Below the pieces are notes generated by a model. That model worked only from the letters and a program-made list of their open reading frames with translations, did no database searches and was not told the DNA's origin. Of a stretch of DNA of 64,000 nucleotides, positions 8,006-62,366 are shown piece after piece. Source of the stretch: Emcibacter sp. SYSU 3D8 (GTDB lineage: Bacteria; Pseudomonadota; Alphaproteobacteria; SMXS01). The number at the start of each line of letters is the position of its first letter. Position 1 is the first letter of the stretch. Where the stretch lies: assembly GCF_039655875.1 (NCBI RefSeq), contig NZ_JBBYXK010000001.1:1095001-1159000 (forward strand), read 5' to 3'. Position numbers and translations under genes: made by a program.

Positions 8006-11000
8006 TCAGTCGCCGGCGCGCAGCACGTTGATCGACGAGTTGCCAATCGCGGTGGCACCGATGCTGTTGCCCCGGACCGTGAACGAGCTGTTATTGCTGT
8101 TGGCATTCAGGGTCAGATTTTCGCCGATCCCGATCACCGTGTTCGTGACGGAGGCGGTCACGGTTGTGCCGTCGTTGGACTGGCTATTGCCGATTACCGA
8201 GCTTGGGTGCTGGAACGTGCCGGTATTCAGCACCAGTTGGTTGACCGCCTCGTTGCCGGTGGCGATGGCCCGAACCTCGTTGCCCTGGACATTGAGCGCG
8301 CTGAAGTCGACACCGGTGGTCTCGTTCAGTCCATCGATGCCGATGTCCACGTCTCTGATCGTCGAGGACACGGTCACGTTGTCAGTCCGCTGATCGTTGA
8401 CCAAAGCATAGTCCGCACCGGTAACCGCGACACGCGACGCCGCGCCCGGATCGATCGTCACGCCCGCACCTGAACTCTCCTGCAGGGTCGCCCCGGCGGA
8501 AGTGATCAGCAGGTTGCTCGACCGGTTAGCCCCGGAGACGGCTTCGACGATGTTGTTATCGACCGTCAGCGAACTATCCGTCGCACCCTCGTCGAGGTTA
8601 CCCGTGAAGATGCCCACATTGTCGATGCTCGCCGACACCGTGCTGCTGGCGAGTTCCTGGACATTGGCGAGGGCCGCCATGGCGTTGCTAGACGAACCGG
8701 CATCCAGCGAAAGCACGTTGATGGACGTGAAACCACGTGCCTCGGCCTGGACCAGGTTGTCCTCCACCGTTACGGCGTCGTTGTTGTAGTCCTCCGCCGC
8801 CGCCGCGCTGATGTAGGAGTTGTTCACAGTGGCGATCATCGTCGCGCCATCGCCGAACTGCATGTTCAGTACGTTGAACGCGGCGTCGAGCTGGATCGTC
8901 GGGTCGGTACCACCGGTGATGGGCGACGAGCCGCCCGCGCCCGCGTTGATCGATGCCCCCGCGACTGCAGTCAGCGAATTGACGACGGAACCGCCGATCG
9001 CCTGTCCGCGGATTTCGTTACTGTTGGCACTGGCGGTGAAGCTGCCGGCGCCGCGCGGGTCATCGGCCACTGCCACGATGCCCGTTCCGTCGACCAGGGC
9101 GGTGGTGTCGCTGCCGTCGCCGATGGTCTGCAGCGACAGTACCGACGCGCCTGGGGTGTTGTCGGCGATACCCGCAGCGGTGATGTTCGCCGAGGCCGTG
9201 ATGTTGAGCGAGTTGGACGCGCTGTGCTGGATTGACGACGCCAGGACGAGGTTGTTGTCGGCGGCAATCGAACCGCTGTCGAAGATGCCATTGGAAATCA
9301 CGCCGATCAGCGTATTGGTGACGCTGGAGTCCACATCCACCTCGGAGAAGACATCGCCAGGATCGCCCTGCACGTTGACGACCGCCAGTGAACTCCGCAC
9401 GTCGACGTCTGCGTCGTCACCGTTCGGCGCGTTGAGCGTATTGGTCGGGTCGTAGTTCAACACGTTGTTGCTGTTGCGGAACACCACATTTGTGCCGTCG
9501 CTGTTCAGATCGTTGGTGGCGCGGTTGCCTGACGACAGAGCGGCCACGGCGTTTCCATTCGCCGAGAACGAGCTGTCGTTGATCGAGCCGTCCACGTTCG
9601 CAAGCACGACGATCTCGGTAGCGTCGACGGAAGAGTCATAGACCACATCCTCGTCAGAGTACTGCAGGTTCGACAGGAACGCCTGGGCCTCGTTCACAAT
9701 ATAATCGAGTGAGAGCGTGTTGAACCCGTCGCTGCCCCGGCTCTCGGCCACCACCAGATTGGAATCCGCGCTAATGCTGGAGTCGTTGATGTCGCCGACC
9801 AGATCGCCATTGCCGATGTAGAAGGGCGGCAGGGACGCGCCGCCGGCCAGCACTTCCAGCTGCGTATTGTTGATGGTGGTCGACACGCCGACCGAACTGA
9901 CCTGGCGCGAGGCCAGAGACATTGACGTGTCCTGCTGCACGATGACGCCATCCTCGGTGATCGCCAGGATCGGGTTTTCCGCCTCCGAATTCTCCAGGCT
10001 GGTGCCGCTGGCATCGAGCGTGTTCACCACGTTGTTGATGCGCGCCAGCGCACGGACCGTATTGCCATCGACACTCAGGTCGCTGCTGTCGATGCTGCTG
10101 GTCGCGTTATCATTGGCATCGAGGGTGAAGTTGACGTCGGCGATGTCGACGGAGAAGCCGCCCGTCGTATCGCCGCCCTGGCCCCACTGGTTCGACACCA
10201 GCGTGGCGATCGGGCCATTGGCTGAATCGGGACCATCGAGGTCGGCGTTGTCGAGGTCAAAGGTCGCGACGTCCACGATCAGGGTATTGGTCGCGTCGTT
10301 GCCGGCGGCAAGGCCCGACAGGCTGTTGCCGTCGATTTCGGCGAGTGTGCTCTCGATGGCGTTACCGTCTACCGACAGGTCGATTGTGATATCGCTGCCG
10401 TCGATATTGACGTCAACTCCGTCGATGCCGAGGGCGAAGAACGCCTGATCATTCACCAGCGTGTTCTCGCCGACGACCGTGGAGTTCGGGCCGACTTCGG
10501 CGCTGATGGTGGTCACGGTGCTGTCGATCGTGCCGCTGAGCACCTGGGTCTGGGACGACACGTCGAGCGTGTTGGTGGCCAGGTTGATACGGGCCGACGA
10601 GCTGTTGCTGTTGTCGTTCGCCTGAACCGTGAGGTTGAGCAGCGGGTTGTCGGCCGCGATGACGTCGATGTCGATATCCAGATCGTCCTGGTCGACCAGC
10701 ATCTGGGCCGAGCCGTCCACGCCGTCCTCGTCGGCCAGCGTCTGGACGTTGACCAGCGACGACGACGCGTCGAGCGTCACGGCGTCGACCGAGACCTTAG
10801 ACGTCGCCTGGTTCAGGGTCGCGGCGATGATGGTGGTGTTTTCGTTGGCGGTGATCTCGGAATTCTGGACCAGCGAATTGCCGCCGGCGTCGTCGCCGAC
10901 ATCGATGTCGATCAGATCCCCGTCCGCTTGGGCGGTCACCGTGTTGCCGTTCAGATCTTCGACCGACTGGTCGTTCAAGAGCGCGATGCCGGCATTGATC

Positions 11001-36722: not shown

Positions 36723-37745
36723 ATGAGCACGACCATGAGAGCGATGGTGCTTGGCCAGCCCGGCGACGGATGCGTCAGTCTTTGCCGGCGCGATCGCCCC
36801 GTGCCCGGGCCCGGCCAGGTTCTGGTCCGTGTGCGCAAATGCGCGGTGTGCCGCACCGACCTGCATGTGGTCGACGGCGACCTGACCAGGCCCAGGACAC
36901 ATGTGGTGCCCGGCCACGAGGTCATCGGCACCGTGGCGGCGCTGGGTCCGGACGTGGACCGCTTCGCCGTGGGCGCGCGCGTCGGCGTGCCATGGCTGGG
37001 GATGACCTGCGGCGCCTGCGACTATTGCCTGTCGGGGCGCGAGAACCTCTGCCCCGGCGCCCAGTTCACCGGGTACACGCTGGATGGCGGGTTCGCCGAT
37101 TACATGGTCGCCGACGCGCGATTCTGCTTCGCCATCCCCGACTTCTATACGGATGCCGAAGCCGCGCCGCTGATGTGCGCCGGGCTGATCGGCCACCGGG
37201 CGCTGACCATGGCCGGTGACGCCCGCCGGCTCGGCCTCTACGGCTTTGGCGCGGCCGCGCATATCATCGCCCAGGTCGCCGTCTGGCAGGGCCGCGAACT
37301 CTACGGCTTCACCCGGCCCGGCGACACCGCCGGCCAGGATTTTGCCCGGGCCATGGGCTGTGCCTGGGCCGGCGGATCGGACATGCGTGCTCCTGTCGCG
37401 CTGGACGCCGCCATCCTGTTCGCGCCCATCGGCGCGCTGGTGCCGGCGGCGCTCGACGCGGTTGCGCCGGGCGGCACCGTGGTCTGCGCCGGCATCCATA
37501 TGAGCGACATACCTTCGTTCCCCTATCGTCTGCTGTGGGACGAGCGGCGGCTGGTTTCGGTGGCCAACCTGACGCGCCGCGATGCGGAGGCGTTTCTCGC
37601 TTTGGCGCCCCAGGTGCCGGTCCGGACCACGACGCATCTCTATCCGCTCGAGCAGGCCAACGACGCCCTCGACGACTTGCGCGCAGGCCGGTTTGAAGGC
37701 GCGGCCGTACTGGATGTGGACGGTTCCGGCACACCTGCCGAATAG
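36723..37745 (+). CDS. zinc-dependent alcohol dehydrogenase family protein
   Basis: 340 residues from MSTTMRAMVLG; an in-frame start at 36684 adds 13 unlikely residues. It has the catalytic zinc segment CAVCRTDLHVVDGD and VPGHEVIGTV. The structural zinc lobe is CGACDYCLSGRENLC, and the Rossmann domain is LGLYGFGAAAHIIAQVA. The SFPYRLLWDERRLVSVANLT segment matches the TIGR02822-type subgroup. It should oxidise primary alcohols or reduce aldehydes with NAD(P); the physiological substrate is not known. It diverges from the HAD gene and leads into the MFS transporter gene 71 bases downstream. Confidence 0.88.
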   Translation: MSTTMRAMVLGQPGDGCVSLCRRDRPVPGPGQVLVRVRKCAVCRTDLHVVDGDLTRPRTHVVPGHEVIGTVAALGPDVDRFAVGARVGVPWLGMTCGACDYCLSGRENLCPGAQFTGYTLDGGFADYMVADARFCFAIPDFYTDAEAAPLMCAGLIGHRALTMAGDARRLGLYGFGAAAHIIAQVAVWQGRELYGFTRPGDTAGQDFARAMGCAWAGGSDMRAPVALDAAILFAPIGALVPAALDAVAPGGTVVCAGIHMSDIPSFPYRLLWDERRLVSVANLTRRDAEAFLALAPQVPVRTTTHLYPLEQANDALDDLRAGRFEGAAVLDVDGSGTPAE

Positions 37746-37816
37746 TGTTGACCGCGCCCGCCGGCCCGCTAGGCTTGCGCAAAACCGGCCAACGGGAACC
37801 AGGGGAGCCAGCGTCA

Positions 37817-39166
37817 GTGAGCAGTGAGGCACCGGGCGCAAGCACGCCCAAACACGGCAATGGCTATCTGGTCTGGGTGGTGTTCATCCTCACCCTCGCG
37901 TCCACCTTCTCGATCATCGACCGACAGATTCTCAACGTCATGATCGGTCCGATCAAGCGCGACCTGGACATCAGCGATTCCCAGATGGGTCTGCTGATGG
38001 GCGCGGCATTCGCCGTGCTCTACAACCTGCTTTCCTACCCGGCGGGCTGGATGGCCGACCGCTATAACCGGCGAAACCTGATGGCGGGCGGCATCGCCGC
38101 GTGGAGCCTGATGACCGTGGTCTGCGGCACCGCCCATTCCTATGTGACGCTGTTCGCCGCGCGCATGGGCGTCGGTGTCGGCGAGGCCGCGCTGGCGCCG
38201 GCGGCGTATTCGACGATGGCCGATTATTTCAAGGCAGCACGCCTGCCGCTGGCCATCGGCGTCGTGGGCGCCGCGCCGTTCCTCGGCCAGGGCCTTGCCG
38301 GCCTGGTCGGCGGCCCGCTGATCGATTATCTGGAAGCCCGGCCGCAGATGAGCGTGCCCGTGCTGGGAGAGATCTATTCCTGGCAGGCGGTGTTCTGGCT
38401 CGTCGGCCTTCCCGGTCTCGTCGTTGCACTGCTGTTTTTCACCATCCGCGAGCCGCGCCGCCACGGCAAGACCGAGGCCGACGGCAAAGGCGTGCCGTTC
38501 AGCGTGGTCTGGAGCTTCGTGAAGAGCCGGCGCGCCTTTTTCGTCCTGATCTTCACCGGCTATCTCGCGCTGTCGACCCAGGGTTGGTCGCTGATGCTGT
38601 GGATCTACGAATATTTCGTTCGCGAGCATGGCCTGACGCGCACCCAGGTCGGCGTTCCCTACGGCATCATCTCGATCGTCGCAGGCATCAGCGGCAGCGT
38701 GTTCGCAGGCGGATTCGCCGGTTACTGGATCAGCAAGGGCCGCAAGGACGGCACGCTGCGGCTGGTGTTCATCGGCACCTGCCTGCTCGGCCCCAGCGCG
38801 GTCGTGCTGACCTTGCTGCCCAGTGCCTACGCGGCGATCGCCCTGCTGATCCCGGTGACGTTCCTGATGGCCATGCCACCCGGCCTGATTTCGTCGGCGC
38901 TGCAGCAGATCGCGCCGAACGAACTGCGCGGCCAGATGATCGCGTTCTACATGATCGCGGTGAACTTCCTCTCATACCTGGTCGCACCCCAGCTGCCACC
39001 GGCGCTGGACCTGCTGATCTACGGGCGCGAGGACACGCTGGGCGTGTCTATTTCCGTGCTGGCCGCGATCAACTATTCGATCGCGGCAATATGCATCGGC
39101 TTCGGCCTGCGCTACTTCCGCAAGGCGCTGAAGGATGCCGAGGCCTGGCAGGACAAGCTGCTCTAG
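37817..39166 (+). CDS. MFS transporter, spinster-like
   Basis: 449 residues from GTG 37817, which has GGGGAG nine bases upstream; a GTG at 37745 overlapping the previous stop is less likely. Twelve hydrophobic segments are compatible with the sequence. The signature parts are STFSIIDRQILNVMIGPIKR, the loop PAGWMADRYNRRNLMAGG, and GVGEAALAPAAYSTMADYF. These resemble spinster-type or hexuronate/aromatic-acid-type MFS members. The substrate cannot be called. It converges on the TetR gene, which might control it or the P450. Confidence 0.87.
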   Translation: MSSEAPGASTPKHGNGYLVWVVFILTLASTFSIIDRQILNVMIGPIKRDLDISDSQMGLLMGAAFAVLYNLLSYPAGWMADRYNRRNLMAGGIAAWSLMTVVCGTAHSYVTLFAARMGVGVGEAALAPAAYSTMADYFKAARLPLAIGVVGAAPFLGQGLAGLVGGPLIDYLEARPQMSVPVLGEIYSWQAVFWLVGLPGLVVALLFFTIREPRRHGKTEADGKGVPFSVVWSFVKSRRAFFVLIFTGYLALSTQGWSLMLWIYEYFVREHGLTRTQVGVPYGIISIVAGISGSVFAGGFAGYWISKGRKDGTLRLVFIGTCLLGPSAVVLTLLPSAYAAIALLIPVTFLMAMPPGLISSALQQIAPNELRGQMIAFYMIAVNFLSYLVAPQLPPALDLLIYGREDTLGVSISVLAAINYSIAAICIGFGLRYFRKALKDAEAWQDKLL

Positions 39167-39225: not shown

Positions 39226-39870
39226 CTAGCGGATGCGGACCTTGTCGCCGTGCTGTTCCCAGACCGCGTGCAACTCTTTCTTCAGTGCGTCGAGCTGCAC
39301 CTTGATCCGCCGTTCGCGGTCGTGAACGATGGCCGAGTTGTTCATGCCTTCGGCCAGGAACTCCAACGTGTCGCGCCAGCGCTCGAAGACATCGCGCAGG
39401 GCCAGGGCGTAATCCGGATAGGCGCGGCGGCCGGCCTCCAGACGGGCCTTTTCATATTCGGCGGCGGCCGGCTCGATGATCGCGCGCAACTCGGCATCGG
39501 TGCGCGAGGCAGCGATCAGTTCCCGCCAGGCGATCGAGATGCGGCTGTTGACGTTCTCCCACGTATTGTCCACGGCCTGGTCGATATAGTCCTTGCCGAC
39601 CGGCGTCCGGGTGGCGCCTTCGAAAAACCGTTCCAGCCACTGCTCGCGCAGATAATCGATGGACGCCTCGAGCACATGCTGCGTGGTGGGAAAATAGTGC
39701 TGTACGGCGCCGCGGGTCACGCCGGCCTTCTTGGCGATCTCGGTGGTGGTCGTTCGAAAATAGCCGATATCGACGAAGCACGAGATCGTCGCCTCGATGA
39801 TTTCCTGTCTTGTGGCCAGGCTGCGCACCCGTCTGCGGCGCGTGCCGGCAAGAGCAACTGAAGTCGCCAT
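39226..39870 (-). CDS. TetR-family transcriptional regulator
   Basis: 214 residues from MATSVALAGTRR, with AAGGT just upstream; the longer frame to 40059 is non-coding in character. The helix-turn-helix is TRQEIIEATISCFVDIGYFR, then TTTEIAKKAGVTRGAVQHYF. The ligand domain is all-helical and of usual length. Similar architecture is seen in the second TetR of this window (59483). It diverges from the cytochrome P450 gene with a 261-base gap that includes an AT-rich stretch, so it probably represses itself and the P450. The ligand is unknown. Confidence 0.88.
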   Translation of the reverse strand: MATSVALAGTRRRRVRSLATRQEIIEATISCFVDIGYFRTTTTEIAKKAGVTRGAVQHYFPTTQHVLEASIDYLREQWLERFFEGATRTPVGKDYIDQAVDNTWENVNSRISIAWRELIAASRTDAELRAIIEPAAAEYEKARLEAGRRAYPDYALALRDVFERWRDTLEFLAEGMNNSAIVHDRERRIKVQLDALKKELHAVWEQHGDKVRIR

Positions 39871-39934
39871 ATACCTTGAATCCACTCCCTGACGCCGCCG
39901 GCCTTGGAAAGTCAGCCTCGACTTTATATTAACT

Positions 39935-39948
39935 AGATTGAGGTCTAA
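39935..39948. promoter_or_regulatory. candidate TetR operator in the P450 divergent region
   Basis: TAGA-TTGAGG-TCTA gives interrupted dyad symmetry within an AT-rich island (39922-39953) just upstream of the TetR gene. Only four matched bases per arm, so weak. Confidence 0.25.
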
Positions 39949-40131
39949 TTTATCGTGCAACGAGCGTGCCGGGCAACCGGCAATCTGCCACAATTGCAAT
40001 GACCGGCGCAACGCGGCGGCTGATACAGGATACGGTATCCGCGACCGAGAGGAAGACAAGGCCGCCGCGGCCCGGGCGATGCGGCTTGCGAGCGACTCGC
40101 GTCATGGCCGCCACAAGGGGAGAGCGATCCA

Positions 40132-41382
40132 ATGAGCACCGCATTGAAGAATCTGAGCCTGTTCGATCCGGCCGTGCAGGAGGACTGGTATTCGGCCTAC
40201 GAGATCCTCCATCGGGAGGAACCGGTCTATTGGTGCGAGGAAGGCGGCTTCTTCGTGGTGACCAAATTTGCCGACATCCAGGCGATCTCGCGCGAGCCCA
40301 ACCTGTTCTCGACCTATGCGACACGCCTGAGTTCGGACCCGCTGATCAAATTTCCCGAGGCGGTGGAGATCTACGAAAACCAGGGCTGGCCCCGTTTCCA
40401 GCCCATGGTCACCGATCCGCCGGTCCACAAGCAGTACCGGCGCAATTTCGACCATTATTTCAGCCCCAGCGGCGTGAAGGTGATGGAACCCTTCATCCGC
40501 CAGTTCATCAACGGGCTGATCGACGGCTGGATCGGCAAGGGCGAATGCGAGTTCGTGCGCGACTTCGCCATGCCGCTGCCGATGAACGTCATCACCAAGA
40601 TGCTGGGCTTTCCCATGGAGGACCTGCCGCGGTTGAAGCACTGGTCCGAGGTCTGGGTGCGGCCCTTTGCACGCGGCCTGAACCTCGAACAGGAGAAATA
40701 CGTCGCCGAGATGGGTGTGGAGTTCCAGCATTACATCCACCAACAGGCCCAGGATCGCCGCCGCAACCCGCGCGACGACGTCCTGACCGCACTGGTCAAC
40801 GGCACCGTCGGCGAAGGGAACGACAAGCGCCCGCTCACCGACAACGAGATCATCGGCATCACCGACAACCTGCTGATCGGCGGCAACGAAACCACCACCT
40901 TCGCGCTCACCTCGGGCATCTGGCTGCTGTTCCGTTTCCCCGACATCTATGCGCAGCTGAAGGCCGACCGGTCGAAAGTGCGCAACTTCGTCGAGGAAGT
41001 GTTGCGCATGGAAAGCCCGACCATGGGCCTGATGCGCTGCGCCACCGAGGACACAGAGATCAGGGGCGTGAAAATTCCCAAGGGCTCGGTGCTGAACCTG
41101 CGCTTCGCCGCCGGCAACCGGGACGAGGAACAGTTTCCGGACGCCGCATGCCCCCATCTCGACCGCAAGAACGCCGCCGCGCACCTGGCGTTCGGCCAGG
41201 CCGAGCATCATTGTCCCGGCGCGGCCCTGTCGCGGCTGGAGCAACTCTGCACCTTCGAGATCCTGCTGGACCGGCTGGACAACATCCGGCCGGCACCGGG
41301 CAAGAACGATTACAGCCACCTGCCCGGATTCACCCTGCGGGGCCTGAAGGAGCTGCACATACAGTTCGACGCAAAGGGATGA
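40132..41382 (+). CDS. cytochrome P450
   Basis: 416 residues, the size of a soluble bacterial P450. The I-helix oxygen-binding motif is GGNETTTFA, the ExxR pair is in FVEEVLRMES, and the heme loop is FGQAEHHCPG. The heme loop fits FGxGxHxCxG except that the second Gly is Ala. It would hydroxylate a hydrophobic substrate and needs a ferredoxin such as the one at 27.4 kb. GGGGAGAG lies about six bases before the ATG. It diverges from a TetR gene and is followed 106 bases later by a TonB receptor, so uptake and oxidation of one substrate is possible. Confidence 0.92.
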   Translation: MSTALKNLSLFDPAVQEDWYSAYEILHREEPVYWCEEGGFFVVTKFADIQAISREPNLFSTYATRLSSDPLIKFPEAVEIYENQGWPRFQPMVTDPPVHKQYRRNFDHYFSPSGVKVMEPFIRQFINGLIDGWIGKGECEFVRDFAMPLPMNVITKMLGFPMEDLPRLKHWSEVWVRPFARGLNLEQEKYVAEMGVEFQHYIHQQAQDRRRNPRDDVLTALVNGTVGEGNDKRPLTDNEIIGITDNLLIGGNETTTFALTSGIWLLFRFPDIYAQLKADRSKVRNFVEEVLRMESPTMGLMRCATEDTEIRGVKIPKGSVLNLRFAAGNRDEEQFPDAACPHLDRKNAAAHLAFGQAEHHCPGAALSRLEQLCTFEILLDRLDNIRPAPGKNDYSHLPGFTLRGLKELHIQFDAKG

Positions 41383-41476
41383 ACCGGTCTAGCGGCCGGT
41401 TTCCGTGGCTGACAGGCAACGGGTGCGCGCCTTGACACCCATCCGCACCTCCCCTTAACTCTGCGCCGAACCGGAT

Positions 41477-41482
41477 GGGGAG
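41477..41482 (+). promoter_or_regulatory. ribosome site pointing to an ATT start of the TonB receptor
   Basis: GGGGAG at 41477-41482 stands six bases before ATT at 41489. Between the in-frame stop at 41456 and the GTG at 41603 there is no ATG, GTG or TTG in frame. Confidence 0.55.
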
Positions 41483-41488
41483 CGAAAC

Positions 41489-43567
41489 ATTAGGCGGATT
41501 TATGGATCGAGCGTAACGGCCTTCGCGGCGGCGACGCTGTGTCACGGTGCCCTGGCTGCATCTCCCGAATCGGTTCCTCTCGTCCGCCGCTCCGGCGAAC
41601 AGGTGGTGGTCACCGCCACCCGCGAGGCGACGGATCGCACCAAGGTGCCCGAGAGCACCGGCGTGATCGACGCCGCGGCGCTGGCCGAGGCCCATGTGGT
41701 GCATCCCGCCGACATCATGGGACGCATTCCCGGCGTCTACCAGGCTTGGCTGAGCGGCAACCACCATGTCACGTCGATCCGCCAGCCGATCAATTTCAAC
41801 CCGCTCTATCTCTACCTGGAGAACGGCATCCCCAAGCAGGCGCCGGGCTTCTTCGAGACCAACGCATTGTTCGACATGAACATGTCGCAGATCTCGCGGC
41901 TTGAAATCACCAAGGGCCCGGGCACGGCGCTCTACGGCTCGGACGCCGTCGCCGGCATCATCAGTGTCTTCACCCTGCCGCCGCCCGAGGACTTCTCGGG
42001 CAGCATCAAGCTCCAGGGCAGCACGCGCGGCTACAAGCAGGCGCTGATCTCGCTGGGCGGCACCACCGGCGCCCACGGCCTGCGCGCCGATATCAACCTG
42101 GTGCAGGACAGCGGCTGGCGCGACCACACCGACTCCGACAACCAGATGGGCACCTTCACCTGGAACATCGACAACGGCGGCAAGCTGACGGTGCGCAACA
42201 CGCTGATCCTGACGCGGGTGAACCAGGATTCTCCGGGCTCGAATCTGAGCCGTGCGGAATTCAAGAACACGCCCAGGATCAACCTCTCGCCCATCGACTT
42301 CCGGCTGGTGGAAGGCGTGCGGTTCTCGAGCCGGATCGACTATGACCTGGGTGACAGCCTGCTGAGTCTCAATCCCTATATGCGCTGGGGCCGGACCAAG
42401 CTGATGCCGTTCTTCCAGCTGGCGTTCGATCCGGCCTATTTCGATGAAAGCGCCACCTCGGTCGGTGCCCAGCTCAAGCTCCGCCACGACTTTTCCGACA
42501 GGCTGCGGCTCATCGTCGGCAGTGACGTGGACTACACCTCGGGCAGCCGGACCGACACCCAGATCCTGCCGGTACGCAATGGCCGGTTCTATGTCAGCTA
42601 CACCGACCTGGACACCATCTACGATTTCAAGGTCAAGGCGCTGACCCTGTCGCCCTACATCCACGGCGAATGGCAGATCACCGACCGGCTGCGCGCCACG
42701 GCAGGCGTGCGCTACGACTACACTCACTACGACTACACCAACAACCTGCCGACAATCATCGATCCCCGGGACTCGCACAACCGGCCGCCGAGCCAGAGCT
42801 TCCACTACAACAATTTCACGCCCAAGGCCGGCCTCACCTATGACGTCACCGACAGGCTGAACGCCTTCGTTTCCTATCGCCAGGCCTTCCGCGTACCGAC
42901 CACGACACAGCTGTTCCGGCCGGGCACGTCCTCGCGCTCGACCGAGTTGAAGCCGGTGAAGGCCGAGAGCATCGAAGTGGGCGTTCGCGGCGGATGGGAG
43001 CGTTTCAGCTTCGATCTGTCGCTCTACACCATGAAAATCAAGGACGACATCCTGGTGTTCACCAACAACACCACCGGTGTGCGCGACATCCAGAACGCCG
43101 GCGACACGCGCCACAAGGGCGTGGAAATCGGCATGACCGCCGAGATCACCGATACGCTCAGCGCGTCGGTGTCCTATGCGCGCACCGACAACCACTTCAT
43201 CGAGTGGTTCCCGGTAGCCAGCGCCGACCTGTCGGGCAACAAGATCAACCGGTCGCCGCGGGACGTGGGCAATGCCCGCGTCGTCTGGCGCCCGTCCTTC
43301 CTCAATGGCGGCCGCTTCGAGATCTCCTGGGAGCACGCCGGGAAGTACTTCATGGATGACAACAACACCCAAGTCTATGAAGGCCACGACCTGCTGCACC
43401 TTGCCGCCAATATGTTCGTGGTCAGGAACGTCGAGCTGTTCGTGCGCCTTCATAACGTGACCAATGCGCGCTACGCGACCAACAGCCGGTTCAGCGCCTT
43501 CAACGGTCAGGAATTGAAGCCCGGCCTGCCGCGCACATTGTTCGGCGGAGTCGGCGTCAGTTTCTAG
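41489..43567 (+). CDS. TonB-dependent outer-membrane receptor, apparent ATT start
   Basis: 692 residues if started at ATT 41489, the only well-placed initiation site. This gives a signal peptide (RRIYGSSVTAFAAATLCHGA, cut after LAA). The first standard start, GTG 41603, would remove the signal entirely. A TonB-box-like stretch EQVVVTATREAT follows. The plug domain covers roughly residues 45-165 (TGVIDAAALAEAHVVHPADI; GPGTALYGSDAVAGIISVF). The C-terminal barrel ends KPGLPRTLFGGVGVSF with a final Phe. It should import a chelate or hydrophobic compound with TonB energy. Its substrate is unknown. Placement after the P450 and before an SDR gene suggests a catabolic link. Confidence 0.82.
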   Translation: MRRIYGSSVTAFAAATLCHGALAASPESVPLVRRSGEQVVVTATREATDRTKVPESTGVIDAAALAEAHVVHPADIMGRIPGVYQAWLSGNHHVTSIRQPINFNPLYLYLENGIPKQAPGFFETNALFDMNMSQISRLEITKGPGTALYGSDAVAGIISVFTLPPPEDFSGSIKLQGSTRGYKQALISLGGTTGAHGLRADINLVQDSGWRDHTDSDNQMGTFTWNIDNGGKLTVRNTLILTRVNQDSPGSNLSRAEFKNTPRINLSPIDFRLVEGVRFSSRIDYDLGDSLLSLNPYMRWGRTKLMPFFQLAFDPAYFDESATSVGAQLKLRHDFSDRLRLIVGSDVDYTSGSRTDTQILPVRNGRFYVSYTDLDTIYDFKVKALTLSPYIHGEWQITDRLRATAGVRYDYTHYDYTNNLPTIIDPRDSHNRPPSQSFHYNNFTPKAGLTYDVTDRLNAFVSYRQAFRVPTTTQLFRPGTSSRSTELKPVKAESIEVGVRGGWERFSFDLSLYTMKIKDDILVFTNNTTGVRDIQNAGDTRHKGVEIGMTAEITDTLSASVSYARTDNHFIEWFPVASADLSGNKINRSPRDVGNARVVWRPSFLNGGRFEISWEHAGKYFMDDNNTQVYEGHDLLHLAANMFVVRNVELFVRLHNVTNARYATNSRFSAFNGQELKPGLPRTLFGGVGVSF

Positions 43568-44980: not shown

Positions 44981-45478
44981 GTGGATAGCGCGCTGTTCGA
45001 GGGTCTCTCGGCTGGACTTGAACACCTGTGTGACGTCGCCATCGACCTGGCGCCGAACACGGTGGGATTGACGACCAAGGGCCCGTTCGCCACCCGATCC
45101 GTCTTCCATATCGGCGGCGGATCCTTCGAGGGACCGCGCCTGAAAGGAAAGGTTCATTCGGGCAGCGACTACCCGATGACCGCGCGCAACGATACCACCA
45201 CCGTGGCGCTCGACGTACGTTCAGTCTGGCAGGCCGACAACGGCGACCTTATCTACGTGTATTACTTCGGCCGGCTGGTGACGCCGCCGCATCTGAAGCG
45301 CGACCTGTTCGATCCGGCGCGCAATCACGCGGTCGATCCCGGGAAGTACTACTGGCGGGTCGCGCCGGTGTTCGAAACCGCTTCCGTGGAACTCGGCTGG
45401 CTAAACAATCTGGTGACGGTTGGCGCCGGACGCTATACGAAGACCGGCCTTGCCTACCGCCTGTATGCCGTAACCTGA
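44981..45478 (+). CDS. DUF3237/UPF0311 family protein
   Basis: 165 residues from GTG 44981, six bases after GGGGAGG. The ATG at 44975 directly abuts that site and is less likely. The family pattern is seen in VFHIGGGSFEGPRLKGKV, HSGSDYPMTARNDTTTVALD and DLIYVYYFGRLV. UPF0311 proteins form small beta-barrels with no established function. No signal peptide. It is followed 11 bases later by a membrane protein gene, so the two may form an operon. Confidence 0.78.
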   Translation: MDSALFEGLSAGLEHLCDVAIDLAPNTVGLTTKGPFATRSVFHIGGGSFEGPRLKGKVHSGSDYPMTARNDTTTVALDVRSVWQADNGDLIYVYYFGRLVTPPHLKRDLFDPARNHAVDPGKYYWRVAPVFETASVELGWLNNLVTVGAGRYTKTGLAYRLYAVT

Positions 45479-45489
45479 AATCGAGGCCG

Positions 45490-46221
45490 ATGATCCAGTC
45501 GCCGAACAAAATGCTCCCCGTCCTCGCAATCCTCAGCGAAGTTTACCGGCTGCATTGGCGTCACGTGCTGATCCTGTTTGCGATCACCGCGGCCTATGCG
45601 CCGCCGCTGATATTCGGCCTTGGCCCCGCCATGCTGGAAATCTCGAAAATTCCGCCCGATCAGATGCAGCAGATCGACGGCGCGCTGCGCGACAAGTTCA
45701 TGCTCAGCGTCGCCGCCGTCATCGTGCTGAGCAGCGCCATCTTCGTGTTCTGGGTCCGGCTGACGCTGGTGGGTCCGCGTGCGGCGATCCTGGGCGAGCC
45801 GATCCGTTGGCCGATCCGCATGGTGCGCGTCGCGCTGCTGTTCGCCCTGGCCGGCCTGGGCGGCTTCATCGCGCTGCTGCCGCTTGGCGCATTCCGGCAG
45901 GTGCTGGCCACGCTGGTGATCTCGTTCCTGTTCGCGCTGCTGTCGCGCCGGCTGGTGGAGGCCTGCATGGACATTCCCAAGGGACAGAAGCACGCGCCGG
46001 CCAGCATGGAAGAAAACTTCCGCTTCGGCGCCCTGCTTGCCGCCGCGAGCTTCCTGCTGCTGCTGGTGCAGACACTGGTGTCCGGGGTGCTGGCGGTGAT
46101 CGGTGCGCCGATGACCGCCAATGTGGCGGCAGGTCTGTTCTCGGTGCTGGCAATAACGGTGATGGCGTCGATCCACGCCATCGTCTACCGCCTGCGGACG
46201 GTGCCGCCCAGGCCCGTTTAG
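45490..46221 (+). CDS. hypothetical multi-pass membrane protein
   Basis: 243 residues with about six hydrophobic segments (HVLILFAITAAYAPPLIFGL, MLSVAAVIVLSSAIFVFW, VALLFALAGLGGFIALLP, LATLVISFLFALL, LLAAASFLLLLVQTLVSGVL, GLFSVLAITVMASIHAIVY). GAGG lies three bases before the ATG. No family is recognised by name. The opening, with a cytoplasmic N-terminus and a cluster of aromatic residues, is like small transport-associated proteins without known role. Its 3' end overlaps the convergent SLATT gene by four bases. Confidence 0.7.
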   Translation: MIQSPNKMLPVLAILSEVYRLHWRHVLILFAITAAYAPPLIFGLGPAMLEISKIPPDQMQQIDGALRDKFMLSVAAVIVLSSAIFVFWVRLTLVGPRAAILGEPIRWPIRMVRVALLFALAGLGGFIALLPLGAFRQVLATLVISFLFALLSRRLVEACMDIPKGQKHAPASMEENFRFGALLAAASFLLLLVQTLVSGVLAVIGAPMTANVAAGLFSVLAITVMASIHAIVYRLRTVPPRPV

Positions 46222-46682
46222 GGACCCTGCGGCGCCGGCGCGGGAATGCCGCGCTCCGGTTCCTGGTCGCGGCTCCGTTGCTCGGATTCGCGCCGGCCCT
46301 GCATCCACGACGCATTGTCGTCCGAAACCAGCGCCTCCACATTCTCCACCAGCAGCCGGTAGGCCTTGGCGTCGGGCAGGTTGTAGCTGCCGGTGCGTCC
46401 CATATAGAGGAACTTCTCGCGCCGCAGCTGTTCGCAGGTCTGGCGGTACTGGACCCAGTAGCGGTGATGCTGGTTCATCTGCTGCAGGCCCTCGACGATG
46501 ACCACCACCACGCCCAGAGCGCCGGGAATGAAGGGCCAGTTGGTCACCGCCGCCGTCAGCGGCACCAGGGCAGCCGCCACCATGCTGATGACCTTCAGAT
46601 ACTTGTACTGCCGCTGATGCCACAGGCTCTTGCGGTCGTACCACCCGATCTGGTCCTCGAGCCGCTCATATCCGCTGTCCAT
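46218..46682 (-). CDS. SLATT/DUF4231 two-helix membrane protein, partner of TIR
   Basis: 154 residues from MDSGYERLEDQIGWYDRKS. The family pattern is clear: an amphipathic start with WYD. Two membrane helices follow at about 29-47 and 52-66 (VISMVAAALVPLTAAV; PGALGVVVVIVEGLQQ). Then comes the conserved stretch HRYWVQYRQTCEQLRREK, then MGRTGSY and YRLLVENVEALV. The C-terminal 25 residues are polar and disordered. SLATT proteins are predicted pore-forming effectors of bacterial conflict systems (Burroughs and colleagues). The gene begins two bases after the TIR stop, so it is cotranscribed with it. Pore activity here is inference. Confidence 0.82.
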   Translation of the reverse strand: MDSGYERLEDQIGWYDRKSLWHQRQYKYLKVISMVAAALVPLTAAVTNWPFIPGALGVVVVIVEGLQQMNQHHRYWVQYRQTCEQLRREKFLYMGRTGSYNLPDAKAYRLLVENVEALVSDDNASWMQGRRESEQRSRDQEPERGIPAPAPQGP

Positions 46683-46684
46683 GT

Positions 46685-47320
46685 TCACTTCGCCCTCAAT
46701 CCCATGACAAACAGGCAGACCGACAGGCCCAGCAGGAACAGCGCGCCCATCAGGGTATCCTCGTCGCCGGTGGACATCACGTCGGCGCAGCCGGCAAAGG
46801 CGCACAGCAGGCTGAATCCTGCGCCCATCAGCAGCCAGAGTCGCTTGTTGCTTTTGGCCGCGGGCGGCGGCGGTGGCGGCCGCGGCGTGGGCGTCGGCAT
46901 CGGCTGGGGCGCTGGCCGCGGCGTCTTGAGAATACCGGCCACGGCATCGACCAGCTGGTTGAACGATTCGCTCTGGACCGACGGATCCCAGCCAATCAGA
47001 TCAGCGGCCTGGATGCGCCTGAACTCGAAGGGAATGTCGGTCTGCGCGATCAGCGCCGGTACCAGGACACCCCGGTCGGCGGCAGCGCCCGCTTCGTTCA
47101 CCACCCAGCGCGAGGCCGCCGAATCCTTCGACCACAGCACGATGACGCAGCGTGCGCCGACCAACGCGTTCTCGATGACCTTGGCATAATCCTGTCCGGG
47201 CGGGATGCGCCGGTCCCACCAGGTGGTCCAGCCGAAACTCTCCAGCCGCCTGGCCAGCTTCTCGGCCTCGCCGCGATCCTCGCTGGCGTAGCTGATGAAT
47301 ATGTCTGCCGCACCCGCCAT
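46685..47320 (-). CDS. TIR-domain protein with two C-terminal membrane helices
   Basis: 211 residues from MAGAADIFISYASEDRGEA. Residues 5-125 form a bacterial TIR (TIR_2) domain: FISYASED, TWWDRRIPPGQDY, CVIVLWSKDSAASRW and the candidate NADase glutamate Glu76 (RWVVNEAGA). Residues 134-153 are a proline-rich linker with a run of six prolines. Two membrane helices follow at about 161-179 and 189-208. Membrane-anchored TIR proteins can sense or execute NAD+ depletion in antiphage defence. The SLATT gene lies immediately downstream. The longer frame to 47410 is not TIR-like. The ribosome site is weak. Defence function is inferred. Confidence 0.85.
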   Translation of the reverse strand: MAGAADIFISYASEDRGEAEKLARRLESFGWTTWWDRRIPPGQDYAKVIENALVGARCVIVLWSKDSAASRWVVNEAGAAADRGVLVPALIAQTDIPFEFRRIQAADLIGWDPSVQSESFNQLVDAVAGILKTPRPAPQPMPTPTPRPPPPPPAAKSNKRLWLLMGAGFSLLCAFAGCADVMSTGDEDTLMGALFLLGLSVCLFVMGLRAK

Positions 47321-47536
47321 GAACCGCGCCCCCCGCGCTGAGTGCCCCAAGCAGGCCGATAGTAACGCATTGGCAACAATGATTGAACTCGTAAAGCATT
47401 CCGCACGCACGCTGATTCCCGCGCCCGAAACGGCATTCCGCCGGCCAAAGGAATGCTTGGCAATCTGCCCCCTCGCGGGGCAGACTACGGGCCCAATGGC
47501 TCAGGCCACTTGAAATCTCCAGGGGAGCGATTCGAC

Positions 47537-49900
47537 ATGCAGAAATTCGGCATCGGCCAGCCAGTCCGCCGCACCGAGGACGTCCGTTTCGTCACAGGCA
47601 GCGGCGCCTACACCGACGACATCAACATTCCGGGGCAGGCCCACGGCTACGTGCTCCGTTCGCCCTATGCCCATGCGGTAATCAAGTCCATCGACACCAC
47701 GGCAGCGAAAGCCGCGCCGGGCGTCATCGGAGTATTCACCTCGGCCGACCTGGCGGCAGCGGGCGTGAACGATATTCCGTGCTTTGCCGGCGGTTTCATC
47801 AAGAACAAGGACGGCAGCAACATCTTCGCGCCGGGCCGTCCCGCGCTGGCCAAGGACCGGCTGCTCTATGTGGGCGACGGTATCGCCTTCATCGTCGCCG
47901 AGACCGTCAACCAGGCCAAGGACGCGGCCGAGTTAATCGAGATCGACGTCGAAGACCTGCCGTCGGCCGCCAACCTGAAGGACGCCGTGGCGCCGGGAGC
48001 GCCGGTGATCTGGGACGCCGCGCCGGGCAACCTGGCGTTCGACTGGGAGATGGGCGACGACGCCGCCTCGCAGGCCGCCTTCGCTGGCGCCAAGCACATC
48101 AGCAAGATCGACCTGGTGCACAACCGCATCGCCACCAACGCCATGGAGCCGCGGGCCGCCATTGGCGAATATACCCCCGGTGAAGAACACTACACGCTGA
48201 GCACCTGCACCCAGGGCGCCAACGGCATGCAGGCCGGCATCGCCGGCGCCGTATTCGGTATCGACCCCTCGAAGCTGCGCGTTTTCACACCCGATGTGGG
48301 CGGCGGCTTCGGCATGAAGACCTTCATCTATCCCGAGCACGTGCTGGTGCTGTTCGCCGCCAAGGCGCTGGGCCGGCCGGTGAAATGGAACGGCGAGCGC
48401 ATCGAGGCCTTCACCAGCGACACCGGCGGCCGCGACATGTTCACCCATGCCGAACTGGCCATCGACGAAAACAACCGCGTCACCGCATTCCGTGTCGTCA
48501 ACCAGGCCAATATGGGCGGCTACATGTCCATGAACGGTCCGTTCATTCCCACCATCGCCCATGCCCGCATCCTGGGCGGCGTCTACAACATCCCGAACGT
48601 CTATGTGAACGTGAAGGGCTACATGTCGAATTCCGTGCCGGTCGACGCCTATCGCGGCGCCGGGCGTCCGGAGGCCGCCTACATCATCGAGCGGGCCATG
48701 GACCAGGCGGCGCGCGAACTGGGGCTGGCGCCCGACGAGTTCCGCCGCCTGAATTTTGTCACGCCCGAGCAGATGCCCTACCAGCATCCCTTCGGCTTCG
48801 TGTTCGACAGCGGCGAGTTCGAGCGCAACATGGAAGACGCCAAGCGCAACGCCAAATGGTCGACGCTCGACCAGCGCAAGGCCGCCTCGCGCGCCAAGGG
48901 CAAGGCCCGCGGCATCGGCATGGCCTATTACATCGAGACCACGCTGGGCATGCCCACCGAAGCGGCCGAGATCCTGTTCCTCGAGGACGAGACGGTCGAG
49001 ATCGTCACCGGCACCATGTCGAACGGCCAGGGTCACGAGACCGCCTGGGCGCAGGTCGTGGCCGAGCAGCTGGGCGTGCCGTTCGAGAACATCAAGCTGG
49101 TGCAGGGCGACACCGACCGGGTGAAATCCGGCCAGGGCACCGGCGGCTCGCATTCCCTCTACATGGCAGCGGGCGCCTTCCAGGAAACTTCCAACGTGGT
49201 GATCAAGAAAGGCAAGATCATCGCGTCGCTGATGCTCGACGAGGACGCGCCGAACATCGAGTTCAGCGAGGGTCTGTTCCGCGTCCCCGGCACCAACAAG
49301 TCGGTCGGCATCCTGGAAGTGGCGGCCAAGGCCCGCCAGGCCAACGAGCTGGACCTGCCGGCCGAGACGAAAGAGATGTTCGTCGACGGCCTGAACAGCG
49401 CCGCCAAGTACAAGTACAACAACTCGACCTTCCCCAACGGCTGCCATATCTGCGAAGTCGAGGTGGATCCGGACACCGGCAAGGTCGACATCGTCGGCTA
49501 TACGGTGGTGGACGATTTCGGACGGCTGGTGAACCCGATGCTGGTGGCCGGCCAGGTGCATGGCGGCGTGGTGCAGGGCATTGGCCAGGCGCTGACCGAG
49601 GACGTGCTCTATGACAGCGAAAGCGGCCAGCTTATCACCGGCTCGTTCATGGATTACGGCATGCCCCGCGCCGACGACATGTGCGACATCGACTTCTCGT
49701 ATAACGAGATTCTGTGCAAGACCAATCCCTATGGCATCAAGGGCTGCGGCGAGGCCGGCACCATCGGCGCCTGTCCGTCGCTGATGAACGCCATCGTCGA
49801 CGCGCTGCTGCCCTACGGCGTCAACGCCATGGACATGCCCGCCACGCCGCTGCGGGTGTGGAATGCGGTCCACGCCGGCGCACGGCAGGCAGCGGAGTAG
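47537..49900 (+). CDS. CoxL-type molybdopterin large subunit, copy A
   Basis: 787 residues of the xanthine dehydrogenase/aldehyde oxidase/CO dehydrogenase large-subunit family. It starts MQKFGIGQPVRRTEDVRFVT; AGGGGAGCG precedes the ATG. The cofactor region reads DVGGGFGMKTFIYPEHVLV. The active-site loop is [12 protein letters not shown], the form II signature rather than the AYxCSFR of true CO dehydrogenase. Late segments include GCGEAGTIGACPSLMNA with the base-like Glu. Substrate is unknown: an aldehyde, carboxylic acid or heterocycle is as likely as CO. It is followed by XdhC and the cofactor fusion gene on the same strand. No CoxS or CoxM lies in this direction. Confidence 0.9.
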   Translation: MQKFGIGQPVRRTEDVRFVTGSGAYTDDINIPGQAHGYVLRSPYAHAVIKSIDTTAAKAAPGVIGVFTSADLAAAGVNDIPCFAGGFIKNKDGSNIFAPGRPALAKDRLLYVGDGIAFIVAETVNQAKDAAELIEIDVEDLPSAANLKDAVAPGAPVIWDAAPGNLAFDWEMGDDAASQAAFAGAKHISKIDLVHNRIATNAMEPRAAIGEYTPGEEHYTLSTCTQGANGMQAGIAGAVFGIDPSKLRVFTPDVGGGFGMKTFIYPEHVLVLFAAKALGRPVKWNGERIEAFTSDTGGRDMFTHAELAIDENNRVTAFRVVNQANMGGYMSMNGPFIPTIAHARILGGVYNIPNVYVNVKGYMSNSVPVDAYRGAGRPEAAYIIERAMDQAARELGLAPDEFRRLNFVTPEQMPYQHPFGFVFDSGEFERNMEDAKRNAKWSTLDQRKAASRAKGKARGIGMAYYIETTLGMPTEAAEILFLEDETVEIVTGTMSNGQGHETAWAQVVAEQLGVPFENIKLVQGDTDRVKSGQGTGGSHSLYMAAGAFQETSNVVIKKGKIIASLMLDEDAPNIEFSEGLFRVPGTNKSVGILEVAAKARQANELDLPAETKEMFVDGLNSAAKYKYNNSTFPNGCHICEVEVDPDTGKVDIVGYTVVDDFGRLVNPMLVAGQVHGGVVQGIGQALTEDVLYDSESGQLITGSFMDYGMPRADDMCDIDFSYNEILCKTNPYGIKGCGEAGTIGACPSLMNAIVDALLPYGVNAMDMPATPLRVWNAVHAGARQAAE

Positions 49901-49910
49901 GCAACAAGCC

Positions 49911-50873
49911 ATGTCCATCGAGGTCCTCAAGACCGCGCGGGACTGGCGCAAGGAAGGGCGGGGCGTCGCCATCGCCACGGTGTCGAGCACATGGGGATCG
50001 GCGCCTTTTCCGGTCGGCAGCCAATTGGCCGCCGACGATCGGGGCAACTTCGTCGGCTCGGTCTCGGGCGGCTGCATCGAGGGCGCGGTGATCGGCGAAG
50101 CGCGCAAGTCGATCAACGACGGCAAGATCCGCAACCTGGAATTCTCCGTCTCGGATGACCAGGCCTGGGAAGTGGGCCTGGCCTGCGGCGGCACCATCCG
50201 GGTGTTCGTCGAGCCCGCGCCCGGCGAGATCGACACGGTTCTTGCCGCCGCCGAGCGCAAGGCTTCCGTCGCCCTCACCACCGACCTGGAAACCGGCAGG
50301 CACCAGCTGTTCGACGCGTCCTCGGCGCCCGAGCCCGTCCGCAACGCCCTGCGCGACGACAGGAGCCAGCCGATTGGCGAGCACGATTTCGTCCGGGTGT
50401 TCAACACGCCGCGCCGCATCGCCATCGTCGGCGCCGTGCATATCGCCCAGGAGCTGGTGCCCATGGCGACGCGGGCCGGCTTCGACGTCACGGTCATCGA
50501 CCCGCGCGAGGCGTTTGCCAGCCCGCAGCGATTCCCCGGTGTGACGCTGTCGACCGCATGGCCCGACAAGGCCATGCGCGACCTGGAAATCGACCCGCGC
50601 ACCGCCATCGTCACCCTGACCCACGATCCCAAGCTGGATGACCCGGCGCTCGACGTGGCGCTGGCGTCCGACGCGTTCTATGTGGGCGCGCTGGGCTCGA
50701 CGCGCACTCAGGCGAAACGGGTCGCGCGGCTGAAGGAAGCCGGTTTCACCGACGACCAGATCGGCCGGATTCACGGCCCCATCGGTCTCGATATCCGCGC
50801 CCAGTCGCCGGCCGAGATCGCCGTCTCGATCCTGGCCCAGATCATCGCCGTCCTGCGCGGCGCCATGAAATGA
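49911..50873 (+). CDS. XdhC/CoxI-family molybdenum-cofactor insertion protein
   Basis: 320 residues from MSIEVLKTARDWRKEGRGVA; the frame could be extended to 49863 but that overlaps the CoxL end. The N-terminal XdhC_CoxI domain shows ATVSSTWGSAPFPVGSQLA and SVSGGCIEGAVI. The C-terminal Rossmann domain has RRIAIVGAVHIAQELVPMA, then FYVGALGSTRTQAKRVARL. XdhC-type proteins bind the matured (sulfurated) cofactor and hand it to the apo-hydroxylase. The stop overlaps the next start as ATGA, so it is coupled to the fusion gene. It may serve all three CoxL copies. Confidence 0.9.
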   Translation: MSIEVLKTARDWRKEGRGVAIATVSSTWGSAPFPVGSQLAADDRGNFVGSVSGGCIEGAVIGEARKSINDGKIRNLEFSVSDDQAWEVGLACGGTIRVFVEPAPGEIDTVLAAAERKASVALTTDLETGRHQLFDASSAPEPVRNALRDDRSQPIGEHDFVRVFNTPRRIAIVGAVHIAQELVPMATRAGFDVTVIDPREAFASPQRFPGVTLSTAWPDKAMRDLEIDPRTAIVTLTHDPKLDDPALDVALASDAFYVGALGSTRTQAKRVARLKEAGFTDDQIGRIHGPIGLDIRAQSPAEIAVSILAQIIAVLRGAMK

Positions 50874-60264: not shown

Positions 60265-61485
60265 CTACGGATCGACCAGGATCACCCGCAGATCGTTGAC
60301 GTTGGTGTGCGTCGGGCCGCTGACGATCTGCTGGCCCATGACGGCGAAAAAGCGACCCGCATCGTTGCGCCGGAGCGCGTCCGCCGGGGCCATGCCGGCC
60401 GACGCCGCGCGCGCCAGCGTGCCGCCGTCGAACCACGCACCCGCCGCATCGGCGGCGCCGTCGATGCCGTCGGTGTCGCAGGCAATGCCGGACACGCGCG
60501 GATCCCCGCCGCAAGCGACCAGCAGGGCAAGGACATATTCGTGGCTCGGGCCGCCGATGCCGTCGCCGGCGATGGTGACGGTCAGTTCGCCGCCCGAGAT
60601 CAGCGCCACCTTGTCTCCGCGCGCGAGATAATCCATCGCCAGCGCCGCATGCCGGCCCGCTACCTCCCGCGCCTCACCCTCTACCGCATCGCCCAGCAGT
60701 ACCGCCCTGTAGCCGGCTGTCTCGGCGACGGTAGCCGCCGCGGCCAGCGCATCGGCAGGCCGGGCAACCAGCACATAATCGCCCCAAGGCGCTGCGACCG
60801 GGTCCGTGCCTGCCTCGAGGTGACGGCGAACGGCCTCGGGCACGTCGAGGCGATAACGGGCGATCACCGCGCGCGCGTCGGCGAAACTGGTGGGATCAGG
60901 CACGGTCGAACCGGACGCGATCACCAGTGGGTCGTCGCCCGGCACGTCCGAGATGGCCAGGGTCAGCAGGCGCGCGGGCCGGGCTGCCTGCGCCAGCCTG
61001 CCGCCCTTGATCGCCGAGAGGTGGCGGCGGATGCAGTTGATCTCGCCGATGGGGGCGCCTGCCCTGAGCAGGGCGGCCGTTACCGCCTGCTTGTCGGCAA
61101 GCGTGAGGCCGGGCGCCGGCAGCGGCATGAGCGCCGAGCCGCCGCCGGACAGCAGACAGATAACAAGATCGTCAGCGGTCAATCCGCCGACAAGGCCCAG
61201 AATGCGCCGCGCCGCCCGTTCGCCGCTGGCGTCGGGCACCGGATGCCCCGCCTCGACGATCTCGATGCCGCTCGTTGGCGCGCCGTGGCCATGGCGGGTA
61301 ACGACCAATCCTTCGACCGGCGCGGGATAATGTGCCTCCAGCACCCGTGCCATCTCGGCACTGGCCTTGCCCGCGCCAACGACAATGGTTCGCCCGGCGG
61401 GCGGCACAGGCAGATGCAGCGGCAGGCAATGCTCCGGCTGGGCCGCTTCGACCGCCGCCGCGAACATGCGCCGGAACAGCTCCAT
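60265..61485 (-). CDS. glycerate 2-kinase (MOFRL/DUF4147 type)
   Basis: 406 residues. The N-terminal DUF4147 domain has TIVVGAGKASAEMARVLE, VVTRHGHG and LLSGGGSALMPLPAPGLTL. The C-terminal MOFRL domain has ALISGGELTVTIAGDGIGGP, then HEYVLALLVACGG and GPTHTNVNDLRVILVDP. These enzymes phosphorylate glycerate to 2-phosphoglycerate; older names such as hydroxypyruvate reductase TtuD refer to the same family. The start overlaps the previous stop by one base (TGATG), so it is coupled to the tartronate-semialdehyde reductase gene and completes its pathway. Confidence 0.9.
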   Translation of the reverse strand: MELFRRMFAAAVEAAQPEHCLPLHLPVPPAGRTIVVGAGKASAEMARVLEAHYPAPVEGLVVTRHGHGAPTSGIEIVEAGHPVPDASGERAARRILGLVGGLTADDLVICLLSGGGSALMPLPAPGLTLADKQAVTAALLRAGAPIGEINCIRRHLSAIKGGRLAQAARPARLLTLAISDVPGDDPLVIASGSTVPDPTSFADARAVIARYRLDVPEAVRRHLEAGTDPVAAPWGDYVLVARPADALAAAATVAETAGYRAVLLGDAVEGEAREVAGRHAALAMDYLARGDKVALISGGELTVTIAGDGIGGPSHEYVLALLVACGGDPRVSGIACDTDGIDGAADAAGAWFDGGTLARAASAGMAPADALRRNDAGRFFAVMGQQIVSGPTHTNVNDLRVILVDP

Positions 61486-62366
61486 CAGTCGCGCCGGGTC
61501 ATCGCTTCCAGCCGGGCGATCAGGCTGGACGTATCCCAGCGGCCGCCGCCCAGGCCCTGGACCTCGCCGTAGAACTGGTCGATCAGCGCGGTGAGCGGCA
61601 GGTGGGCGCCGTTGCGCCGGGATTCGTCGAGCGTCATGCCGAGATCCTTGCGCATCCAGTTGACGGCGAAGCCGTGCTCGAACCGGCCGTCGGTCATGGT
61701 CTCGTAGCGGTTCTCCATCTGCCAGCTCTGCGCCGCGCCATGACGGATGACATCGACGACGGCGCGCGGATCGAGTCCGGCCTGCTTGGCGAAATGGATG
61801 CCTTCAGACAGCCCCTGCACCACGCCGGCGATGCAGATCTGGTTGACCATCTTGGTGAGCTGGCCGTGGCCTGCCGGTCCCATCAGCCGCACTGCCTTGG
61901 CGAATACATTCATGGCGGCTTCCGCCCGGTCGAAGACCGCCGGGTCACCGCCCACCATCACCGTCAGCTTGCCGTTCTCGGCACCCGCCTGCCCGCCCGA
62001 GACCGGGGCGTCGAGCACGCCGATCCCGCGTTCCTTGCCCGCGGCGTCCAGCTCGCGCGCCAGCACGGCGGAGGCCGTGGTGTGGTCGATCAGGATGCTG
62101 CCCGCCGCCATCGCGGTGAATGCGCCATCCTGGCCCAGGATCACCTGGCGCACGTCGTCGTCATTACCGACACAGGAAAACACCATGGCGCAGCCCTCCG
62201 CGGCTTCGGCGGGCGTGGCCGCGGCTGCGCCGCCATGCTGCGCCACCCAGGCGTCTGCGCGCGCCTTGGTCCGGTTGAAGACCGAAACATCGTAACCCGC
62301 CGCCCTGAGATGCCCGGCCATGGGATACCCCATCACGCCCAGGCCCAGAAACGCCACCTTCTCCAT
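61485..62366 (-). CDS. 2-hydroxy-3-oxopropionate (tartronate semialdehyde) reductase family protein
   Basis: 293 residues of the beta-hydroxyacid dehydrogenase family. Visible are the NAD-binding loop FLGLGVMGYPMAGHLRAAGY, the substrate loop DAPVSGGQAGAENGKLT and the catalytic Lys segment GHGQLTKMVNQICIAG. It would reduce tartronate semialdehyde to glycerate, which the coupled downstream kinase phosphorylates. 3-hydroxyisobutyrate dehydrogenase is the alternative; the kinase neighbour favours the first. Glyoxylate carboligase is not in the window. It diverges from the chromate transporter gene. Confidence 0.87.
   Translation of the reverse strand: MEKVAFLGLGVMGYPMAGHLRAAGYDVSVFNRTKARADAWVAQHGGAAAATPAEAAEGCAMVFSCVGNDDDVRQVILGQDGAFTAMAAGSILIDHTTASAVLARELDAAGKERGIGVLDAPVSGGQAGAENGKLTVMVGGDPAVFDRAEAAMNVFAKAVRLMGPAGHGQLTKMVNQICIAGVVQGLSEGIHFAKQAGLDPRAVVDVIRHGAAQSWQMENRYETMTDGRFEHGFAVNWMRKDLGMTLDESRRNGAHLPLTALIDQFYGEVQGLGGGRWDTSSLIARLEAMTRRD

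Follow-up and report, generated by a model that had tools for sequence, protein, structure and literature searches.

We conclude that a TonB-dependent receptor gene of Emcibacter sp. SYSU 3D8 is very probably translated from an AUU codon at position 41489 of the window (the whole 64,000-nucleotide stretch of DNA analyzed here), a conserved near-cognate start that is AUC in most relatives. By sequence comparison, the codon, a Shine-Dalgarno (SD)-like sequence and a promoter-like block are seen to be maintained together in two genera. ATT or ATC (ATY) occupies the start in all seven receptor copies from these genera with the SD-like sequence and the promoter-like block kept, which argues for conserved near-cognate initiation rather than for a lost ATG.

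The reading frame of the receptor opens after a TAA at 41456-41458 and extends to 43564 on the forward strand; read from the ATT, the gene lies at 41489-43567, stop codon included, and encodes 692 aa. The protein matches the Pfam families Plug (PF07715; residues 51-157, 47.5 bits against a cut-off of 23.9) and TonB_dep_Rec_b-barrel (PF00593; residues 216-656, 156.8 bits against a cut-off of 27). By sequence, its closest relatives of solved structure are YncD/PqqU (6v81, 9c4o), yet the receptor falls far under the cut-off of the PqqU family (NCBIfam NF041535, 117.2 bits against 1200) and was not assigned to it. In the mature part, dN/dS was 0.08-0.34 in the 15 pairs among six members of the genus, and by this measure the receptor is therefore subject to purifying selection. 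A TetR-type gene lies near the receptor in several relatives: it is divergent in genomes G003 and G007, and on the same strand just downstream of the receptor in G008 and G009. In the region 39226-43567 of our window a P450 gene separates the two, and in G004 further genes do so as well.

The original prediction, made from the letters of this stretch, held that no ATG, GTG or TTG lies between the TAA at 41456 and a GTG at 41603, and inspection bore this out: the 48 codons of this run are free of NTG. The GTG at 41603 sits within a TonB-box-like stretch, EQVVVTA. A gene caller restricted to ATG, GTG and TTG would fall into an annotation trap here, beginning the receptor at this GTG and dropping the signal peptide; the list of open reading frames of the window, which admits these three starts, does begin the receptor there. 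The ATT (41489-41491) was found where it had been described, with GGGGAG (41477-41482) six bases upstream, for which the predicted SD duplex is -7.0 kcal/mol. The signal peptide that it was said to open (41489-41560) is plausible when judged by eye, reading (M)RRIYGSSVTAFAAATLCHGALAA and then SPES, and a similar stretch follows ATY in the other copies.

As such, 48 consecutive codons free of NTG are no rarity (about 15% at the G+C content of this genome, by a rough estimate). The position of the run, not its length, is unusual, because in all 40 of the other TonB-receptor loci in the control set the signal-peptide core is preceded by an NTG. This set was drawn from the 43 receptor barrel matches of the genome and comprised 40 of the 42 others. 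The count comes from inspection of the marked N-termini; a scripted choice of the core gave 39/40 and picked the wrong core at two loci (L058 and L041). Inside the window, 36 genes whose homologues were found in two or more of six relatives were screened automatically. Seven of them were flagged as having no NTG at the conserved start, and inspection left the receptor alone. The other six were rejected as non-NTG starts, since an NTG-started frame covers the recognizable protein: Pfam domains lie inside that frame at 37697-39163, 40024-41379, 46688-47500, 49788-50870 and 60268-61803, and the gene at 45034-46218, with no Pfam match, is judged from the open reading frame list alone.

Orthologues were sought in the order, which is represented by 10 genomes of one family in three genera (g1, g2 and g3). 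The receptor is present in nine of them, and the genome in which none was found is only 78% complete. A class-wide search of 385 genomes drawn evenly gave no orthologue outside the family at E<=1e-150. Genus g1 holds the copy studied here (genome G000) and L009, L010, L007, L008 and L006; g2 holds L011, and g3 holds L012 and L013. The seven copies of g1 and g2 come from seven different genomes. Identity to our receptor is 70-88% for the five g1 relatives, 60-61% for L011 and 57% for the g3 copies, and all nine frames are free of internal stops.

At the aligned start, the codon is ATT in our copy and L009, and ATC in L010, L007, L008, L006 and L011. Near-cognate ATY is thus found in 7/7 copies of g1 and g2 (ATT in two, ATC in five) and in none of the two g3 copies, and ATG occurs at that place in none of the seven. 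Base 41491, which the original prediction had proposed to compare among close relatives, is T or C throughout g1 and g2; in both g3 copies the signal peptide is opened by ATG. The presence of ATT or ATC in all seven copies, across two genera, supports the proposal that the receptor would use AUU initiation as infC does. In each of these copies a stretch resembling a signal peptide follows in the frame of ATY, with a basic residue within four codons and then hydrophobic residues. Read from ATC, and judged by eye, the stretch is KKNLALALALILPVSAPAIA in L011 and KPILAASLAAITAVGLSAAAAA in L008. Among the copies, the 60 nt that follow ATY differ without an excess at third positions, and the substitution pattern does not place the start.

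Upstream of the receptor lies a promoter-like block, with a -35 element TTGACA at 41432-41437 and a -10 element TTAACT at 41455-41460 that overlaps the TAA closing the frame upstream. The form TTGACA-N17/18-TTAA(C/A/G)T, a pattern composed after the sequences had been viewed, is found in all seven ATY copies, 25-29 nt before ATY. The -35 element is TTGACA in every one of them, the -10-like element is TTAACT in five copies, TTAAAT in L009 and TTAAGT in L011, and the spacer is 17 in six copies and 18 in one. In our genome TTGACA-N16-18-TTAACT has a single occurrence, at the receptor; the same pattern search did not find the block at either g3 locus. From the -10 element to ATY the distance varies by non-multiples of three; even so, all seven copies keep the ATY that follows the SD-like sequence in the receptor frame. 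That SD-like sequence stands at a workable spacing in each of the seven, with duplex energies from -4.3 to -10.5 kcal/mol (weakest in L011, -4.3), calculated with an assumed anti-SD sequence and not one taken from the genome's own 16S rRNA. A 16S family search for the 16S tail gave no match, and the same search also missed a Caulobacter control, so that its silence means little.

These features suggest how the start may work. Transcription from a promoter with its -10 element ending at 41460 would leave a leader of about 20 nt on the mRNA. GGGGAG would pair with the 16S tail and place the AUU in the P site, where the ordinary fMet-tRNA would pair with the first two bases of the codon and mismatch at the third. 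We infer that the AUU at 41489 is the real initiation codon. By analogy with characterized starts of this kind, receptor output would be expected to lie well under that of an AUG start and to be repressed by initiation factor 3 (IF3); translation would then be weak and would increase under a shortage of IF3. A specialized initiator tRNA for AUU/AUC was also considered: 44 tRNA genes were found in our genome, two of them with anticodon CAT, and none of the 44 looks clearly like an initiator. A general pattern for the initiator stem-loop was found in 0/9 genomes, which probably reflects missing stretches.

Whether such a start has a function is a separate question. It could be guessed that a weak start is kept to limit how much of a costly outer-membrane protein is made, or to tie its synthesis to the supply of IF3. 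The fuller proposal, that selection holds the AUU/AUC start and that receptor synthesis follows the IF3:ribosome ratio as a standing IF3 control, is possible but rather doubtful. If it were true, IF3-coupled control would extend from the translation machinery to uptake at the cell surface. The AUY start may instead be used without any regulatory role, having drifted in and been tolerated as the SD sequence is good and demand is low; we give this a probability a little short of even. It agrees with the fact that genus g3 manages with ATG. In addition, 50 of the 125 conserved fourfold sites of the receptor gene (40%) also have no G in all seven taxa, and therefore the constant absence of ATG does not prove selection against it. 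Against drift, ATY has persisted through dS of up to about 0.69 within g1 and in a second genus, always one transversion from ATG. This persistence shows, as far as the aligned copies reach, long tolerance of ATY; it is no proof that ATG is disfavored. In a tree meant to show whether ATG or ATY is ancestral, the four paralogues used as outgroups proved too distant to give a root.

Initiation elsewhere is a quite improbable alternative. The ribosome would then begin at an in-frame codon upstream, at a CTG or GTG in the hydrophobic core, or at an out-of-frame ATG followed by frameshifting. In its favor stands L009, the one exception to the finding that 6/7 copies have no usable in-frame NTG start: 15 nt upstream of ATT it carries an in-frame ATG that has no SD sequence and would lie about 6-8 nt from the end of the predicted transcript, as well as a GTG about six codons downstream of ATT in the hydrophobic region. 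A comparable ATG lies 14 nt upstream of ATY in our copy and L010, out of frame. No alternative, however, is found in all copies. The upstream ATG is missing from L008, L006 and L011, and L007 has only an out-of-frame ATG that is differently placed; nor is the out-of-frame ATG at 41475 conserved, and frameshifting from it was rejected on that ground. Ahead of the TonB-box region, NTG is absent from our copy, L008 and L011. In L010, L007 and L006 the NTG codons downstream of ATY lie only within the hydrophobic core, and a protein begun in the core would lack a basic n-region. A further GTG in L006 is upstream of the promoter-like block. Starts further upstream would precede that conserved block, and are unlikely since the block would give a leader of only about 20 nt. 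The remaining explanation, that a point mutation or an assembly error turned ATG into ATT and weakened or silenced the receptor in this strain, draws on the single base that separates the two codons and on the ATG of the third genus, but it is contradicted by ATT or ATC in all seven copies from seven genomes of two genera, by the nine intact frames and by the dN/dS of 0.08-0.34, and is extremely improbable.

Conserved near-cognate initiation at the receptor can be compared with that of infC in the same order. infC was found in nine of the ten genomes. Its conserved start place follows GGAGA and holds ATA in six copies, ATC in two and ATT in one. Since all nine copies have an ATG five codons further on, and seven of the nine frames an NTG upstream, infC is not a clean control. 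Both genes have a near-cognate AUH after an SD or SD-like sequence, conserved across species, and the infC of these same genomes shows it. The product of infC, however, is IF3 itself, which allows feedback, whereas any link of the receptor to IF3 would be one-way. In genome G003, infC lies about 3.7 kb upstream of the receptor on one contig (L023, about 8240-12000); in the seven other genomes with both genes they are on different contigs, and these fragmented assemblies say little about distance. The proximity in G003 is possibly a coincidence, yet it is suggestive for the question of IF3.

Noncanonical start codons characterized by experiment are very few, according to one report (PMC5472188). 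That report describes the start of Streptomyces sigR as GTC in 32 and GTT in 2 of 34 species, with a conserved SD sequence, and the GTC start as repressed by IF3 in experiments. The receptor resembles sigR in that the third base is C or T, in all seven g1 and g2 copies as in all 34 species for sigR, and the SD-like sequence is conserved; it differs in that the sigR codon begins with GT, sigR encodes a sigma factor and its repression by IF3 was shown by experiment. In Staphylococcus aureus, conserved AUU (cvfC1) and AUA (ccpN) starts are described in PMC13009471, with reporter output at about 10% of that from AUG in poor medium and, for ccpN, up to 30% in rich medium. These too are conserved near-cognate starts with an SD sequence in genes other than infC. 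Their SD sequences, however, are strong and extended, their products are different and their starts were shown by profiling, whereas the SD-like match of the receptor is shorter. For Escherichia coli, AUU starts are given only for infC and pcnB in PMC9410913. The report on pcnB (Binns and Masters 2002, cited in PMC13009471 and PMC9410913) calls its expression translationally limited in its title. Like the receptor, pcnB has an AUU start and is not an initiation factor gene, but its product is unrelated and its host belongs to another bacterial class. IF3 is stated in PMC8266586 to raise the dissociation of non-canonical complexes.

The open-access literature searched, in which subscription papers are mostly outside coverage, gave no example of a TonB-dependent receptor with an ATT start, and an open-access search for AUU/AUC start codons in alphaproteobacteria returned no title on TonB receptors. 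The receptor offers a well-conserved candidate noncanonical start in a new functional class. It appears otherwise ordinary, and through it the small known kind of conserved near-cognate starts would gain an outer-membrane receptor. It also provides a specific instance in which to ask whether the cell surface is shaped by IF3 levels.

Some further observations were made in the window and the genome. On the minus strand at 46221-47410, a TIR-domain protein (Pfam TIR_2, 86.7 bits) adjoins a DUF4231/SLATT-like protein (66.9 bits). PADLOC gave weak TIR matches for the former and no match for the latter; together they look like a candidate defense pair. Several of the 43 TonB-receptor barrel matches in genome G000 form tandem runs, for example at C2:329-337 kb, C1:702-709 kb and C2:1002-1009 kb. 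A tRNA gene with anticodon CAT (C4:20392-20465) is found about 250 bases downstream of the TonB-receptor barrel match L041 (G000:C4:16907-20538).
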